From a virus, in IMG/VR virus record IMGVR_UViG_3300049008_000029, positions 1 to 38,667 of that record: a stretch of 38,667 bases of DNA; one strand, written 5' to 3'. How positions within the stretch are numbered: the stretch's first letter is position 1; every line of letters starts with the position of its first letter. A program made the translations under genes and the position numbers. The notes below the pieces were generated by a model, which searched no databases, had not been told where the DNA came from, and saw only the letters and a list, made by a program, of their open reading frames with translations. Shown one piece after another: positions 27,754 to 34,963 of this stretch.

Positions 27754-29151
27754 ATGGGTATTTTGGATGTTTTCAAGGGTAAAAAGGTAACCGAGAGCAA
27801 TAGTCTGTTTGGTCAGACGGCACTCGGAAACAACATCGTTTACCAGGGATCGAACCAAAAGCCCACTGTAAACACCCAAATCCTGTATGTGACGACTGCC
27901 AGCACGACAAATGCTGGTAGGCCGGTCGATATGTCCATGCTGACACGGAATTCGACCGTGATGGCATGCGTAGGCACCAAAGCAAGGGCATTGGCCCAGT
28001 TGCCCATTCGGGTGATGTGCGAGATGGACGATGGGGCATATCTTGATGCCGTGAAATGCGCTGAGGTTGGCCCGCGAGATAAAGCTAAGGCCAAACAAGT
28101 CGCCGCCTTGCTGAATGCGCCAAATAACTTCCAGTCTACATATGAGTTCTGGTATCAGTACCTTATGTGGCACGAACTGGCTGGCGAGGTGTTTATCTTG
28201 TGGTGGCGCAAAGACCAAGAGTCGCCAACGCAGACGCCGCTTGAAATGTATGTCTTTGACTCGACGCTGATTGCGACGACCATCACGCCTGCGCGGTATC
28301 CGTCATATCGTTTGTCCACGCCGAGCTATGGCTTTAGCCGAGATGAGCCACTTGCAGCCCATCAGGTCATGCATCTGATGGATCAGGCATGGCAAGGCTC
28401 GGCTTCGTTCAATAAGGGTATCCTGGCGGCAGAACTGGTTGGTCTGGATCAGGATATTGACCTGTACGCCAACTACGTCATGCAAAATGGCGCAAAGCCC
28501 TCCGGCATGTTCGTGACTGAGCAGGTCATCCCTGACGCCAAGTACAAAGAGATTGCCGGCAGGCTCAAGGAGGCATGGTCAACGATGACCGGGTCGCGTA
28601 ACAGCGATCCTAGCAAGCCTGGACAGGGTATGTTGCTTGACCAAGGCATGAAATACACGCCTTTAAACATGCTGACGCTACAAGACGCCGATACTGAGAA
28701 GCTCAAGACCCAGACTATGAAGCGTATCTGTGGCCTGTTCGGGGTGCCGCCTGCGATGATTGGTATTGCCGATCAGAAGTACAACAACACCCAAACAGTG
28801 CTGGATGAGTTCTACAAATCATGTATGTACCCTATGATTGTGAACATTCAGCAAAAGCTGAAGCAGCATTTGTTTCCAGGCTACCCTTCGCTGTCCATTG
28901 AGTTCGATACCCGCGCATTCCTCAAGGGTGCGCCGCTCGACCAGATGAATTTTGCGGTTGCAGGCGTGAATGCCGGAATAATGACCCAGAATGAGGCCCG
29001 CCAGTACATGGGCATGAAGAACATGGACGGCGCAGATGAGCTTATCAGCCAGAAGGCCGCGCCTGCTGATGGCGCAATCCCTGGCGGTAGCCCGCAGGAT
29101 ACAGGTGGCGGCGGGGGAAGTCAGAAGAAGAAGATGAATATTGGTAAATAA
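27754..29151 (+). CDS. Portal protein, HK97 family (465 aa)
   Basis: Forms the dodecameric channel at one capsid vertex. The sequence contains the family features NSTVMACVGTKARALAQLPIRV near the start, a long MWHELAGEVFILWWRK segment, and LCGLFGVPPAMIGI-type motif (KRICGLFGVPPAMIG) with KYNNTQTVLDEFY afterwards. The C-terminus is Gly/Lys-rich and disordered (GGGGGSQKKK). Follows TerL by three bases. Confidence 0.94.
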   Translation: MGILDVFKGKKVTESNSLFGQTALGNNIVYQGSNQKPTVNTQILYVTTASTTNAGRPVDMSMLTRNSTVMACVGTKARALAQLPIRVMCEMDDGAYLDAVKCAEVGPRDKAKAKQVAALLNAPNNFQSTYEFWYQYLMWHELAGEVFILWWRKDQESPTQTPLEMYVFDSTLIATTITPARYPSYRLSTPSYGFSRDEPLAAHQVMHLMDQAWQGSASFNKGILAAELVGLDQDIDLYANYVMQNGAKPSGMFVTEQVIPDAKYKEIAGRLKEAWSTMTGSRNSDPSKPGQGMLLDQGMKYTPLNMLTLQDADTEKLKTQTMKRICGLFGVPPAMIGIADQKYNNTQTVLDEFYKSCMYPMIVNIQQKLKQHLFPGYPSLSIEFDTRAFLKGAPLDQMNFAVAGVNAGIMTQNEARQYMGMKNMDGADELISQKAAPADGAIPGGSPQDTGGGGGSQKKKMNIGK

Positions 29152-29286
29152 AGTCAATTTCTTGCTATTTAGAAATCATGCTAACATTCGCCAAACAAAT
29201 CAAAAGGTTTGTCTCGCCATTGCGGATTAAGAAGAAGATACAGACAATACAAGACAATGATCAATCAATTGCCTTGGGGATTATCG
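29152..29286 (+). other. Gap before the prohead protease
   Basis: About 135 A/T-rich bases without a convincing gene. The protease frame is open upstream with ATGs at 29209 and 29257, but a ribosome-binding site (GGGGA) precedes 29287. A small frame starting at 29178 overlaps the protease by about 100 bases and reads as unlikely protein. Confidence 0.5.
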
Positions 29287-30048
29287 ATGAAAAATCTAGA
29301 TGTGATCTGCGAAGCGCGGATGAAGACCGAGGGCCAATCTGGCCTGATCGAAGCTCGCGTGACGACCTGGGGCGCTCGGGAGGGCGCTGACGGTCGCCGG
29401 TTCAACTATCAGCCAGAAGGCTTCATGGATTGGGCAACCGAGTTCAGCAAGACTGGACGCCCGCTGCCGATGTTTGTCAACCACAGCGCAGATTCCATCC
29501 CCGTTGGTGAGTGGACAAGCTTTGATTTCGATAACGAAGGCATGACAGCCAGCGGCAGGCTCTATACCAACACCTCGGCAGGCAATGACTTGTACAGCGT
29601 GATGAAAGAGTCCCCAGCCATGTTTGGCGGGGTTTCAGTTGGCGCTTATGCAGAAGCTTATACAATGGTCAATGCTGACGGCGAACCAGATGGCACTGAT
29701 GAAGCATATTTTCAGATCACCAAGGGTGGCCTGCGCGAAGTGTCCGTTGTTATGTATCCCAACAACCCGGCAGCAGAAGTTTCCAAGCTAGAGTATTTCC
29801 GGCCTGATGGCACTGCTGACCTAAAGATTTTGGAGAAGGCTTTGCGCGATGCAAGTCTCTCGAAAAAGGATGCGGTCACTGCCGCATCTGTCTTCAAGCG
29901 AGTACTGGAACAGCGTGATGCTCCCCCAGTCAAGCTTGAAAACGCTCCTGCTCCGAGTGATTCGGGTGTGGATGTGACCGCAAACGAAGCTATCATTGCT
30001 GCACTAGAGCAGCGAGAATTGCTTCAACTCCTCTCAAAACGTATTTAA
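29287..30048 (+). CDS. HK97-type prohead protease (253 aa)
   Basis: Serine protease that trims the capsid N-terminal delta domain during head maturation. The likely catalytic residues are His66 in FVNHSADSIPVG and Ser117 in GGVSVGAYAE; the conserved LREVSVVMYPNNPAA strand follows. The start at 29287 follows GGGGATTATCG. It lies ten bases before the first capsid gene, whose N-terminal coiled coil is the expected substrate. Confidence 0.92.
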   Translation: MKNLDVICEARMKTEGQSGLIEARVTTWGAREGADGRRFNYQPEGFMDWATEFSKTGRPLPMFVNHSADSIPVGEWTSFDFDNEGMTASGRLYTNTSAGNDLYSVMKESPAMFGGVSVGAYAEAYTMVNADGEPDGTDEAYFQITKGGLREVSVVMYPNNPAAEVSKLEYFRPDGTADLKILEKALRDASLSKKDAVTAASVFKRVLEQRDAPPVKLENAPAPSDSGVDVTANEAIIAALEQRELLQLLSKRI

Positions 30049-30057
30049 GGAATCCAA

Positions 30058-31410
30058 ATGTCTAACGTGATTATTGAAAAACTGGACGCCATCGAGGCCG
30101 CGCAAGCCGCCAAGATTGCTGAAGTTACCATTGCCGCTCAGTCGGTTGTTGAAGCTGCCAAGACCGAGATGAGCGAAAAGCTTGCCGCTCTGGAAGCAAA
30201 GATTTCCACCCTGCAAGTTCCTGCGTTCATTCGTCCTATTGCAAAATCAGTGCGCCAGGATGTGAATCGCTCGGTTCGTGAGCAACTGTCTTCGTTCTAC
30301 AAAAGCAACGCCCGCACCGAAAAAGAACTGCAAATGTTTGCAGACGAATCGGAGTATGCAGCGTACATGAAGGAAGCCTCGGCACTTACTGCTGGTGGTG
30401 ACGGCCAAGGCGGTCGTACTGGATATGATCCGGTGTTTGTTGCTTTGCGTCTGGCAAATCCAATGCGCGGCCTGTCGCGTACTGTCGCTACTGATGGCTC
30501 AAGCTATCAGTTCCGTGTCAAGACCGGAAACGCTGGCGCTCAGTGGGGATATGGCATCCAGAACAACGGTTCGCCCACTACTGAAAACACCAGTATTTGG
30601 CAATTGGTTCTGAAGGACATTAACGTCCAGTTCCCAATCCGTACTGCTGCGCTGGATGACATCGATGGTTTGGAAGCCAACGTCGTAGACGACATGCTCA
30701 TGGAGTTCTCGCAAGCTGAGGCCCAATCCATGATTTCCAATAGTGATCAGACCGGCACAGGTACTTCGGTTACTACTGGCGGCGCTGATGGCCTGCGTGG
30801 TTTGGATCAGTATCCTGGTTCAAATGCAACGTATGCTGGCGGCACGACTTCTACGCCTGCTTTTGGCACTAGCGGCACAGGTAGCACGACCGGCTTGCAC
30901 AGTCTGGCAACCTATGACCAGTTGACATCCAACATCAATACGGTTGGTGCCAATATTGTTACCTACAAGGATATGATCAATTTCATCTACGCTTTGCCGC
31001 AGCAATATTGGACACCGTCAGCCCGCCTGATGATCAGCCCAATCCTGTTGGCCGGTATTCGTGGTATGACTGATTTGCAAGGCGCACCAATCTTCAATCG
31101 TAACGAAGGTTTGTCGGTTGACGGTATCGTCGGTCAACTGCTGGGCTTTGATGTGGTTGTCAACAAGTACTTGGATACTCCAAGTCAGGTTGCAGTTGCT
31201 GCTGCCGGTACTGTTTCCAAGTACCCGATGTTCTTTGGTGATTGGAGCCGCTTCCATACCATCATCGACCGTCTGAACATGGTGATGCGCCGTTATGACC
31301 AGACCCTGCCGGGTTACATTACGTTCTTCGGCGAGAAGCGTCTGGCAACTAGTGTCCGTGATCCGAATGCTGGTGTGCGTTATCGCTCGACGGCAACTGC
31401 TGCGGCCTAA
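30058..31410 (+). CDS. Major capsid protein, HK97 fold, with delta domain (450 aa)
   Basis: The main shell protein. Residues 3-60 form an Ala/Glu/Lys-rich coiled coil, the scaffolding delta domain that the adjacent protease should remove. The HK97-type body begins near residue 113 with GDGQGGRT. Later motifs include FPIRTAALDDI, GGADGLRGLDQY, a P-domain LMISPILLAGIRG segment and the C-terminal PGYITFFGEKRL. AAGGA lies six bases upstream of the ATG. A paralogue without the delta domain follows 52 bases downstream. Confidence 0.94.
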   Translation: MSNVIIEKLDAIEAAQAAKIAEVTIAAQSVVEAAKTEMSEKLAALEAKISTLQVPAFIRPIAKSVRQDVNRSVREQLSSFYKSNARTEKELQMFADESEYAAYMKEASALTAGGDGQGGRTGYDPVFVALRLANPMRGLSRTVATDGSSYQFRVKTGNAGAQWGYGIQNNGSPTTENTSIWQLVLKDINVQFPIRTAALDDIDGLEANVVDDMLMEFSQAEAQSMISNSDQTGTGTSVTTGGADGLRGLDQYPGSNATYAGGTTSTPAFGTSGTGSTTGLHSLATYDQLTSNINTVGANIVTYKDMINFIYALPQQYWTPSARLMISPILLAGIRGMTDLQGAPIFNRNEGLSVDGIVGQLLGFDVVVNKYLDTPSQVAVAAAGTVSKYPMFFGDWSRFHTIIDRLNMVMRRYDQTLPGYITFFGEKRLATSVRDPNAGVRYRSTATAAA

Positions 31411-31417
31411 GTAGTAC

Positions 31418-31444
31418 TAGGGGGGGCCATTCGGTTCCCCCCTA
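31418..31444 (+). promoter_or_regulatory. G/C hairpin between the two capsid genes
   Basis: TAGGGGGG (31418-31425) pairs with CCCCCCTA (31437-31444) around an 11-base loop. There is no U-tract, so it is not a simple terminator; it may stabilise the upstream mRNA, act as an attenuator or process the transcript so that the first capsid gene is expressed more than the second. Confidence 0.7.
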
Positions 31445-31462
31445 ACCAACTGGAATTGAATT

Positions 31463-32494
31463 ATGACTATTACCATCACTGAACGAATTCTCTCCGGCAT
31501 CAAGCAAACTATCTCCACTGGCGAGAAAGTAACGATTGATCTGCGAGAAGCAGCGGGATTGACCGGAAGCGGTGATGGTCAAGGCGGTCGAACCTATTTT
31601 GATAATGCGTTTGCTGCACTGCGTTTTGCTAATCCTATTCGCGCCGTGTCGCGTGTAGTCAAATACACTGGCTCTAGCGCCATGTTTGTTGCCAAGACCG
31701 GCAATGCTGCAAGCCAAACAAATCCTTGGACGTACACTTTCACGCCTGACAGTGGAACCCCAGGTACAAACACTACGATTTGGCAATTGCCAACTCGCGT
31801 CATTACTGCCCAGCTGCCAATCCGCACTGCGGTCATGTCTGACGTTAACTACCTCAATGAAACCATCGTTCAAGATTTGATGATGGAGTTTGCAAGCATT
31901 GAGGGTGCCTCAATGGTGCAAAACAATGACCAAGCTGGCTCAACCACAACGACCACAGGCGGCACCAATGGCCTGCGTGGGCTAGACTATTACACCAGCG
32001 CAGCAGCATCAGCCTATGGCACCAGTGGTACTGCTATTACAAATGGCATCCATAGCATAGCAACCAACAGCAAAGCTGGCGCTCTTATTTATGATGACAT
32101 TGTTAATCTGACAGACATTTTCCCAGCGCAATATTGGGCACTTCCTGGCAATGCTTGGATGATGCACCCAGACACAATTCATGATTTGCGAAACCTTGGG
32201 CCAGCAGGCGCCATCAAGCAATTTGCTGAGGTTGGAAATTCAGAAGGCGGCGCAGTAGCGTACATGTTTGGGTTCCCGGTAATTCCGAATGCAAATATTG
32301 ATGTAATAGGCGCAGGCAACTTCCCAATTTATCTTGCCAACTGGCCCTTGTTTATGACCATTGCTGATGCAGAAGAAATGACCATCCAAGCAATGGAACA
32401 GACAAGCCCAGGCTACATTACCCTTTATTGCGAAAAGCGTCTGGTTTCTACCGTTCGCAATCCTTTTGCTGGTGTGCGTTTGGCGAGTACCTAA
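31463..32494 (+). CDS. Second capsid paralogue without delta domain (343 aa)
   Basis: Clearly homologous to the gene before it: GDGQGGRT (residues 37-44), AALRFANPIRAVSR, TIWQLP, LPIRTAV, MMEFASIEGASM, GGTNGLRGLDYY and PGYITLYCEKRLVSTVRNP all have counterparts in the same order. It lacks about 77 N-terminal residues, including the whole coiled coil. It could form the vertices, as gp24 does beside gp23 in T4, or a minor shell variant; a non-structural role is less likely because the fold-defining blocks are kept. The codon use is similar to that of the first copy. Confidence 0.88.
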   Translation: MTITITERILSGIKQTISTGEKVTIDLREAAGLTGSGDGQGGRTYFDNAFAALRFANPIRAVSRVVKYTGSSAMFVAKTGNAASQTNPWTYTFTPDSGTPGTNTTIWQLPTRVITAQLPIRTAVMSDVNYLNETIVQDLMMEFASIEGASMVQNNDQAGSTTTTTGGTNGLRGLDYYTSAAASAYGTSGTAITNGIHSIATNSKAGALIYDDIVNLTDIFPAQYWALPGNAWMMHPDTIHDLRNLGPAGAIKQFAEVGNSEGGAVAYMFGFPVIPNANIDVIGAGNFPIYLANWPLFMTIADAEEMTIQAMEQTSPGYITLYCEKRLVSTVRNPFAGVRLAST

Positions 32495-32496
32495 TC

Positions 32497-33159
32497 ATGG
32501 CGGCAGAAGGTCTCTCTGGTTATCCTTATGCCGCGGCTACGCGGAATCCGTTCAACTATGTAAAGTTTGAACAGATTTTGCGGGATGTGGTGACCCCTTG
32601 GCTTTCGCTGTCACTCATCACAAATCATCTGAATTTGTTTGATGACACTAGCCAGGACACCTACATCTCCTCGCTGGAACTGGCGACCCGGTTTGCCATT
32701 GAGGATTACCTTGGCTTGTCTATCTTTCCGGTCAGCTACCGGGTCTGGTACGGCCCAGAAGGCCTTGTAGCCTCACCAACTAGCTTAGATTTGCCAGAGG
32801 TCAGCCAGAATTTTAATAGCCTCCAGGCTGGCGTTACAATTAACAAGGTAGCGTATTACAACTCGTCCAATGTGCTGACTATTGTTAGCCCAAGCATTTA
32901 TTACTATGATGCTTCTGGCAACAAAGTCATTGTCAGTAGCCTGCCTACTGATATCAATTCAGACATGACGGCTCCTATCATTGTTGAGTACACAACGGTA
33001 GCTAACCCGTTGCAAACCTATCCGTCAATTCAGCAAGCCGCATTGTTGCTGTTGACGCATCTGTACAACAACCGCAGCAATACAACCAATATCATGCAGA
33101 AAGACATTCCATTTGGCGTGTCTACCTTACTGCGGCCTTACAAGCCATTGGTGATGTAA
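32497..33159 (+). CDS. Head-tail connector protein, gp6-like (220 aa)
   Basis: Starts two bases after the second capsid gene. The N-terminal helical part (WLSLSLITNHLNLFDDTSQDTYISSLELATRFAIEDYLG) matches the adaptor family that binds under the portal. The TYPSIQQAALLLLTHLYNNR helix near the C-terminus is typical of gp6/gp15-type adaptors. A beta insertion lies between. It should form the ring that connects portal to tail. Confidence 0.85.
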   Translation: MAAEGLSGYPYAAATRNPFNYVKFEQILRDVVTPWLSLSLITNHLNLFDDTSQDTYISSLELATRFAIEDYLGLSIFPVSYRVWYGPEGLVASPTSLDLPEVSQNFNSLQAGVTINKVAYYNSSNVLTIVSPSIYYYDASGNKVIVSSLPTDINSDMTAPIIVEYTTVANPLQTYPSIQQAALLLLTHLYNNRSNTTNIMQKDIPFGVSTLLRPYKPLVM

Positions 33160-33934: not shown

Positions 33935-34429
33935 ATGGCTCTGCCCAATAAAATTCTCCCAGGCTTTAGTGCATCTTTGTATGCACAGCCATTGGCCGCT
34001 CCTACGGCGTTGACGCTTGCTCAACTTTCTACCCTAGGCAGCGTTGCAGCAATTGCTGTATCGGGCAATCTGGTGCCAGTGGAGGCTATCCCAGCCTTCG
34101 GCCAAGACGATGCAGTGGCAAGCTTTTCGGTTGCCGGGTCGCGTCAGTCAGACAAGATTCCCGCCCAATCGGCTCCTACTAGCCTGACCATCAGTGCTGC
34201 ATGGAATCCTAGCGATGCCGTTCTGCTGTTGGTTCGCGGTGATGCTTATAGTGGTATCGTTGACCGCACTTATGTGGTTGCTGTTACTGATGGCGCTAAT
34301 ATTGTTTACTACGCATTCAATGCCCGTGCCTCGCAATGGCAAGTGGACGCCCAGCCGGGTGCAGAATCTAAAGTGACTTTCACTTTGCATCCCCGTGGCA
34401 ATCTGTACGGTTGGTCTAACAACGCCTAA
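33935..34429 (+). CDS. Major tail (tube) protein, copy 1 (164 aa)
   Basis: Starts MALPNKILPGFSASLYAQP and contains FGQDDAVASFSVAGSRQSDK and WNPSDAVLLLVRGD. It shares a large proportion of its residues with the gene that follows, in the same order. A small beta-sandwich tube protein directly after the terminator is expected here. The Gly-Asp-Ala-Tyr-Ser-Gly and HPRGN blocks are conserved in both copies. Confidence 0.82.
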   Translation: MALPNKILPGFSASLYAQPLAAPTALTLAQLSTLGSVAAIAVSGNLVPVEAIPAFGQDDAVASFSVAGSRQSDKIPAQSAPTSLTISAAWNPSDAVLLLVRGDAYSGIVDRTYVVAVTDGANIVYYAFNARASQWQVDAQPGAESKVTFTLHPRGNLYGWSNNA

Positions 34430-34444
34430 TTGGAGTAATGAATC

Positions 34445-34963
34445 ATGGCAGCACCTAATGTAATTCTTCCTGGCTTTAGTGCCTCAATGTGGATGCAGAG
34501 TGGCGCTACGCCCTCGGCATTGTCTACTGCTAATCTGTCAGTCTGGGCAGCACAAGTTGCAACTATCGTTGGCACGGTCGCCAACGGTACGGGCGCTGCT
34601 GGCGTCCCATTGAATGTCGAAGCAGTCCCGGCATTCGGCCAAGATGACGCAGTGGCAAGCTTCGGCGTTGCCGGCTCACGCCAATCAGACAAAATTCCTG
34701 CTCAGTCGGCTCCTACTTCGCTGACCATCACGGCAGCATGGAATCCGTCAGACGCTGGCCTGCTGCTGATCCGTGGCGATGCCTACAGCGGCGTGATTGA
34801 TCGGACTTTCGTTGTCGCAGCAGTTTCTGGTGCAACGACCATTGCCTATGCTTTCAACGGTCGCGTGTCGCAGTTCCAGATTGACGCCCAACCCGGCGCT
34901 GAAGCGAAATGCACATTTACCGTGCATCCTCGCGGCAATCAATATGGCTGGAGTAACACATAA
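34445..34963 (+). CDS. Major tail (tube) protein, copy 2 (172 aa)
   Basis: A paralogue of the preceding gene with many identical blocks: ILPGFSAS, FGQDDAVASF, GSRQSDKIPAQSAPTSLT, AAWNPSDA, RGDAYSG, DAQPGAE and HPRGN-YGWSN. It differs by an insertion near residues 40-55 (TVANGTGAAGV). Two tube paralogues could build a mixed tube, a cap ring or a specialised tip-proximal ring. Its stop overlaps the next ATG (TAATG). Confidence 0.82.
   Translation: MAAPNVILPGFSASMWMQSGATPSALSTANLSVWAAQVATIVGTVANGTGAAGVPLNVEAVPAFGQDDAVASFGVAGSRQSDKIPAQSAPTSLTITAAWNPSDAGLLLIRGDAYSGVIDRTFVVAAVSGATTIAYAFNGRVSQFQIDAQPGAEAKCTFTVHPRGNQYGWSNT

Follow-up and report, generated by a model that had tools for sequence, protein, structure and literature searches.

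A tandem pair of capsid paralogues in freshwater siphoviruses of about 39 kb and a proposed vertex role for the second protein

The genome of a freshwater phage (IMG/VR virus record IMGVR_UViG_3300049008_000029; 38,667 bases, analysed here over its full length and called the window) encodes two HK97-family capsid paralogues side by side, namely a major capsid protein that carries an N-terminal delta domain (CP1) and a shorter protein that lacks most of this domain (CP2). The phage is a relative of Methylophilaceae phage P19250A and belongs to a lineage of ~39 kb freshwater siphoviruses. By analogy with previously described two-protein heads, we consider it probable, with moderate confidence, that CP1 forms the hexamers of the head and CP2 homopentamers at its 11 non-portal vertices. 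A low-copy role of CP2 is fairly well supported, while its vertex position, together with its presence in virions, the cleavage of its leader and the T number of the shell, is what we infer from this comparison.

Two capsid paralogues in one head module

The head module of the window runs from the terminase through the portal, an S78-type prohead protease, CP1, CP2 and a connector to the tail genes, and the two tandem capsid reading frames described in an earlier note on this sequence were confirmed at the positions listed in Table 1. The start codon of the protease is uncertain, and the listed TTG start of the connector overlaps CP2, its real start probably being internal. Further downstream, major-tail-protein paralogues also lie in tandem (33935-34429 and 34445-34963; 67% identity across 171 positions). 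Among the 116 loci with enough downstream sequence, 54 carry two copies of this tail protein and 62 carry one, as does P19250A, and this duplication is much younger than that of CP1 and CP2.

Table 1. Head-module features around the capsid gene pair (positions in the window)
Feature	Position	Strand	Basis or remark
Portal protein	27754..29151	+	Pfam Phage_portal 1.3e-56; upstream context
Prohead protease (Peptidase_S78)	29209..30048	+	Pfam Peptidase_S78 3.6e-9; PHROG head maturation protease 2.8e-10
CP1, HK97-family major capsid protein with N-terminal delta domain, 450 aa	30058..31410	+	Pfam, PHROG and RcGTA profile match
CP1 delta (scaffolding) domain, about residues 1-105	30058..30372	+	Alignment of 61+61 sequences; AF2 helices
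Hairpin directly 3' of the CP1 stop codon	31418..31444	+	T-run follows in most relatives, not in the window copy
CP2, second capsid protein with HK97 fold, 343 aa; proposed as low-copy vertex subunit	31463..32494	+	CP1 paralogy, predicted fold
CP2 leader, residues 1-28	31463..31546	+	Conserved amphipathic helix and strand; possible short pre-piece
Head-tail connector, 3' of CP2	32428..33159	+	PHROG_40 1.3e-11; Pfam Phage_connect_1 1.4e-4

The two proteins align by BLASTP from CP1 residue 104 and CP2 residue 27 to their C-termini, with 142 of 347 positions identical (41%, E 2e-72), and the body motifs that had been said to be shared, from GDGQGGRT to PGYIT..EKRL, are present in both. CP1 matches the Pfam family Phage_capsid (PF05065) at 4.7e-26 (92.3 bits vs a curated cut-off of 24.2) and the major head protein family PHROG_10 at 2.1e-26. 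CP2 matches PHROG_10 at 2.8e-9; the window copy has no Pfam match, while the CP2 proteins of relatives L301 and L304 do match Pfam. The sequence profile of CP1 finds the capsid protein of RcGTA (6tb9) at 3.8e-9, and the CP2 profile points to the same capsid. An AF2 model of CP2, built on an alignment of 94 relatives (pLDDT 73, pTM 0.74), likewise resembles 6tb9 (Foldseek 7.4e-16; VIA Z 21.8, rmsd 4.3 over 257 residues) and, by Foldseek, also HK97 and other HK97-fold proteins, and CP2 is therefore predicted to keep a complete HK97 fold, E-loop and N-arm included. The CP1 model was poor (pLDDT 54.6) because all CP1 relatives are close to one another, and we therefore assigned the CP1 fold from its Pfam and PHROG matches, which leaves the limits of its A-domain approximate. 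Two blocks of 7-8 residues each in CP1 (254-261 and 290-296) are missing from CP2; judging from the sequence, both likely belong to the A-domain, which packs around the capsomer centres.

The main difference between the paralogues lies at their N-termini. The glutamate that precedes the first shared motif is E106 in CP1 and E29 in CP2, so that the figure of about 77 N-terminal residues missing from CP2, as given in the earlier note, is exact. In the low-confidence AF2 model the N-terminus of CP1 is mostly helical (residues 2-51, 65-82 and 97-109), and CP1 thus combines a helical N-terminal domain with an adjacent prohead protease, as in HK97-type heads, its cleavage being predicted and the protease being the presumed cleaver of the delta domain and perhaps also of the CP2 leader. 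The alignment of 61+61 sequences indicates that this delta domain is absent from CP2 except for its last part. The claim that only CP1 carries a delta domain therefore holds for the coiled-coil portion, but the N-terminus of CP2 is not bare: a leader of ~28 residues is conserved in all CP2 proteins (typical sequence MTITERILSGIKQTLETGEKVTIDLREA) and forms a helix at residues 5-19 and a strand at residues 23-26 in the AF2 model, the helix being amphipathic in 54 of the 61 non-redundant members. The leader ends at EAxxLTGSGxGxGG, a segment common to CP1 which, in our reading of the alignment, would roughly coincide with the cleavage junction of HK97.

Retention, age and exchange of the pair

We gathered relatives by searching IMG/VR and genome contigs, keeping the closest 80 loci per search. 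At least 309 loci with CP1 or CP2 were obtained, 290 of which have both genes as two clean matches in the order CP1-CP2, although some of them share a contig and 290 is therefore not a count of independent genomes. Two loci beyond these 290 (L301 and L304) also have both genes, CP2 carrying an insert, and at the other 17 listed loci the contig breaks off at the absent gene or a very short distance from it. Among the loci listed (closest 80 per search), no relative proved to carry CP1 without CP2; distant single-copy relatives could exist beyond them. The carriers of CP1 followed by CP2 include the isolate P19250A (38,749 bases), whose gp5 is 60% identical to CP1 and whose gp6 is 57% identical to CP2. 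In its deposited annotation gp5 is a GTA capsid protein and gp6 (P19250A_0006) a hypothetical protein, the second capsid gene having gone unrecognised. The OM43 phage Venkman, which has been called syntenic with P19250A in a paper, was set aside: in its deposited annotation the head module is podovirus-like, with scaffolding encoded by a distinct gene beside the single major capsid gene, and neither CP1 nor CP2 found a match in its genome. Another relative of this phage, L201 (JAHEYD010000010.1), comes from a bin that bears the name of an archaeon, Candidatus Nitrosotalea; this phage contig was probably mis-binned, and we do not take it as a sign that the host is archaeal.

CP1 and CP2 are under similar purifying selection, with pairwise dN/dS values of 0.10 and 0.11, respectively (61+61 sequences). 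Because the 290 listed loci carry the pair and dN/dS is about 0.1 for both genes, chance can be excluded as its source. The phylogeny that had been suggested as a means to date the duplication was run on 61 genomes and placed CP2 on one side of a fully supported branch. Within each of these genomes, CP1 and CP2 are 36-43% identical throughout, with no sign of gene conversion. The duplication thus predates every member sampled, and no homogenisation has followed. Rooting with an outgroup was unreliable, the nearest single-capsid phages sitting on very long branches; without a reliable root, the tree is compatible with an origin of CP2 from CP1 or of both from a shared ancestor.

Strict co-inheritance of the two genes was rejected by the conflict between their trees. 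In quick trees of the 61 genomes, only 4 of 58 splits are common to CP1 and CP2, and of the 24 CP1 splits with good support, 18 are incompatible with a CP2 split that is itself well supported. L006 and L009, for instance, combine a window-like CP1 (77-78%) with a CP2 that is 65-66% identical to that of P19250A vs 52-54% to that of the window. Recombination, with breakpoints between the two capsid genes or inside them, thus seems to have often swapped partners, and the contacts made by CP1 capsomers with those of CP2 would accordingly be sufficiently conserved for interchange. Such exchange fits loosely coupled capsomers and does not favour very close association in mixed oligomers or an unchanging pairing.

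The junction between the two genes

The gap between CP1 and CP2 usually measures 48-75 nt and contains a strong hairpin (MFE <= -12) in all 72 of the 72 non-redundant sequences tested. At least four Ts lie on the 3' side of this hairpin in 88 of 100 distinct sequences, and a strict terminator pattern occurs at 37 of 61 junctions, whereas the remainder of these loci leads one to expect ~0.005 per 100 nt. Compensatory changes were found in 7 of 8 stem pairs, a level reached in 0 of 500 shuffles and above all slid controls, and no Rfam family matches the hairpin. In most relatives it is therefore probably an intrinsic terminator or attenuator, as far as its sequence pattern can tell. The window copy has no T-run and folds only moderately better than shuffles (z -1.9), and owing to the missing T-run a standard terminator scan did not flag it, whereas the hairpin of P19250A was flagged; in this phage the element may thus act as a 3'-end stabiliser rather than as a terminator. 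With either role, CP2 and the genes 3' of the hairpin would probably be expressed at a lower level than CP1. Phages often have a terminator behind their major capsid gene, however, and whatever gene came next would be lowered by it, which counts against the role proposed for CP2.

In some relatives additional genes have entered the gap. L081 carries a homing endonuclease gene between CP1 and CP2 (L081:5917-6528; phrog_314, 1.7e-15), with a similar ORF in the gap of L171, and L232, L233, L235, L236 and L237 have an extra ORF of ~105 aa (MPKPTQAMKEEAQRGLDWRKEF...; phrog_2859, 5.4e-31) between hairpin and CP2. At all of these loci the hairpin has stayed beside the CP1 stop codon.

A proposed vertex subunit and its alternatives

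T4 and the satellite system of Ccm are already known to divide hexamers and pentamers between HK97-fold proteins, and CP2 shares features with both. As in the case of gp23 and gp24 of T4, CP1 and CP2 are HK97-fold paralogues encoded by adjacent genes, the minor one having a far shorter N-terminal pre-piece (PMC9958956); T4 gp23 loses 65 residues and gp24 loses 10 (PMC9958956). The likeness extends to the junction, as gene 23 is directly followed by a hairpin with T6 (GGGAACCTTCGGGTTCCCTTTTTT, z -4.2), then by segD, which encodes a GIY-YIG homing endonuclease, and then by gene 24, so that a hairpin with a T-run after the major gene and a homing endonuclease between the genes (segD in T4, phrog_314-type in L081 and L171) occur in both systems. 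The gene plan of CP2 is accordingly that of gp24, namely a paralogue in the adjacent gene with a shorter pre-piece and a terminator-like hairpin in between, and the homopentamer role would follow by analogy. The sequences, however, do not belong to the T4 family: neither CP1 nor CP2 has a T4-family match in Pfam or PHROGs, and their profiles reach gp23 and gp24 at best at E 0.012 (1.7 bits, in a two-sequence search). The likeness to the T4 plan is therefore likely convergent or due to shared constraints, and, judged by these comparisons, the duplication of CP1 and CP2 is independent of the T4 family. The systems also differ in that T4, with its 169-kb genome, uses a distinct scaffold protein (gp22), whereas here the scaffold is a delta domain and the genome measures 39 kb, and in that gp23 and gp24 are about 20% identical, compared to 41% for CP1 and CP2, whose vertex arrangement is drawn by analogy.

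The second precedent, Ccm of SaPIbov5, which works with the capsid protein (CP) of phage phi12, is a capsid homologue with a shorter delta domain (87 vs 128 residues; PMC8569155) that is 24% identical to CP. By cryo-EM, Ccm occupies the pentamers and CP the hexamers, and Ccm expressed without phi12 forms no capsids (PMC8569155). Unlike Ccm, which is satellite-encoded and redirects the helper head to a smaller size, CP2 is phage-encoded, lies beside CP1 in all relatives checked and sits inside a phage head operon with terminase, portal, protease and CP1. The closest solved fold is that of the RcGTA capsid protein Rcc01687 (6tb9), by profile for both CP1 and CP2 and by structure for CP2, and a delta domain with an S78-type protease is shared with HK97; in contrast to the pair described here, Rcc01687 and HK97 gp5 each make both pentamers and hexamers as a single capsid protein. 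This is how most HK97-type phages build their heads, and a vertex protein is not needed in principle.

In the model that we propose, an old tandem duplication would have given rise to CP2, which gave up the bulk of the delta domain but retained a short amphipathic leader, and in which two loops of the likely A-domain region became shorter. CP1 would be the abundant subunit, its delta domain acting as a built-in scaffold that drives hexamer assembly until the prohead protease removes it, perhaps along with the CP2 leader. The hairpin or terminator after CP1 would hold CP2, the connector and the tail genes low relative to CP1, and CP2, unable to nucleate alone, would join as homopentamers at the 11 non-portal vertices. 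T=7 is usual for a 39-kb genome, and in a shell of this size ~55 CP2 to 360 CP1 would be expected. The earlier note had suggested that CP2 could be a T4 gp24-like vertex subunit or a later lattice replacement. The former is the best supported reading, the parallel with T4 being closer than the note had drawn it (terminator, homing endonuclease, shorter pre-piece), while no support was found for the latter; the accompanying suggestion that CP2 would join the shell only together with CP1 matches the behaviour of Ccm. The shortened A-domain loops bear on the same comparison, as gp24-bypass mutations map to the A domain of gp23 and let gp23 replace gp24 at the vertices (PMC9958956).

Two CP2 proteins provide a hint as to where the protein is exposed. 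CP2 of L301 (L301:2870-4102) and of L304 (L304:4979-6211) is 411 aa long and carries an insert of ~65 residues in the E-loop region that matches the tail-fibre-type PHROGs 38233 and 21413. This suggests that CP2 is exposed on the exterior of the virion, a place where a domain on display would be plausible. The CP1 proteins in the set reach at most 474 residues, the two longest being judged by length alone. These inserts, together with the dN/dS of 0.11, the full predicted HK97 fold and the universal retention of the gene, make it highly improbable that CP2 is not a virion protein at all (a regulatory decoy or a decaying duplicate), even though its counterpart in the only isolate found, P19250A_0006, is annotated as hypothetical and we found no proteomics for it. 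It is also very unlikely that CP2 is a substitute major capsid protein, or a spare kept for other conditions or for recombination exchange with CP1. The conflict between 18 of 24 well-supported CP1 splits and the CP2 tree shows that the two lineages recombine, which would suit this reading, but their roles never swap, conversion is absent, both genes are always present among the loci listed, and a protein that has no scaffolding domain, and no recognised scaffold gene adjacent to it, should not form a head alone.

The remaining alternatives accept CP2 as a shell subunit and differ in where they place it. CP2 might enter mixed capsomers together with CP1, at positions that vary or are random, tuning the stability or the surface of the shell instead of marking vertices; many invariant positions are common to both proteins, which makes mixed contacts conceivable, and the Family 2B encapsulin of Streptomyces lydicus combines two HK97-fold proteins in one shell with irregular, random tiling, albeit in a T=1 nanocompartment and not a virus head (PMC12407261). 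We regard this arrangement as rather unlikely. Distinct lattice roles are suggested by the gene plan, with its lower dose of CP2, by the consistent differences in the loops and by the fact that every CP2 has lost the delta domain; moreover, both phage precedents (T4 and Ccm) form homo-oligomers, and frequent partner exchange between lineages argues against intimate mixed oligomers. Nor do we know of any HK97-fold protein that acts only at the portal vertex, which, along with a complete fold including E-loop and N-arm as expected of a regular lattice member, makes it quite unlikely that CP2, instead of occupying all vertices, is confined in very few copies to one particular site, for instance the capsomers next to the portal or a ring that initiates the shell or sets its size. 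The position of its gene on the low-expression side together with the connectors would nevertheless suit such a role, and in the case of Ccm the size of the capsid is set by a minor HK97 paralogue (PMC8569155).

Returning to CP2 as the vertex protein, we lean slightly towards the broader view that this freshwater ~39 kb siphovirus lineage independently evolved an obligate two-protein head, with hexamers of the delta-bearing protein, pentamers of its delta-less paralogue and partners that are exchangeable between lineages. Such a lineage would join T4, to which it is unrelated, as the second phage group that encodes a dedicated vertex protein. We found no description of this capsid pair in the literature searched, which did not include the original P19250A paper. 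A 2025 paper called T4 the single virus with a split between hexamer and pentamer proteins (PMC12407261), and a 2026 review took T4 as the example of this split and linked it to large genome size (PMC13185644). If our reading is true, the split arose more than once, contrary to the former statement, and it did so in 39-kb phages with an HK97-type head whose scaffold is part of the capsid protein. As CP2 has shed most of this scaffold, the pair asks directly whether pentamers need a scaffolding domain, and since P19250A has been isolated with its host, a two-protein head of this kind would be experimentally accessible.
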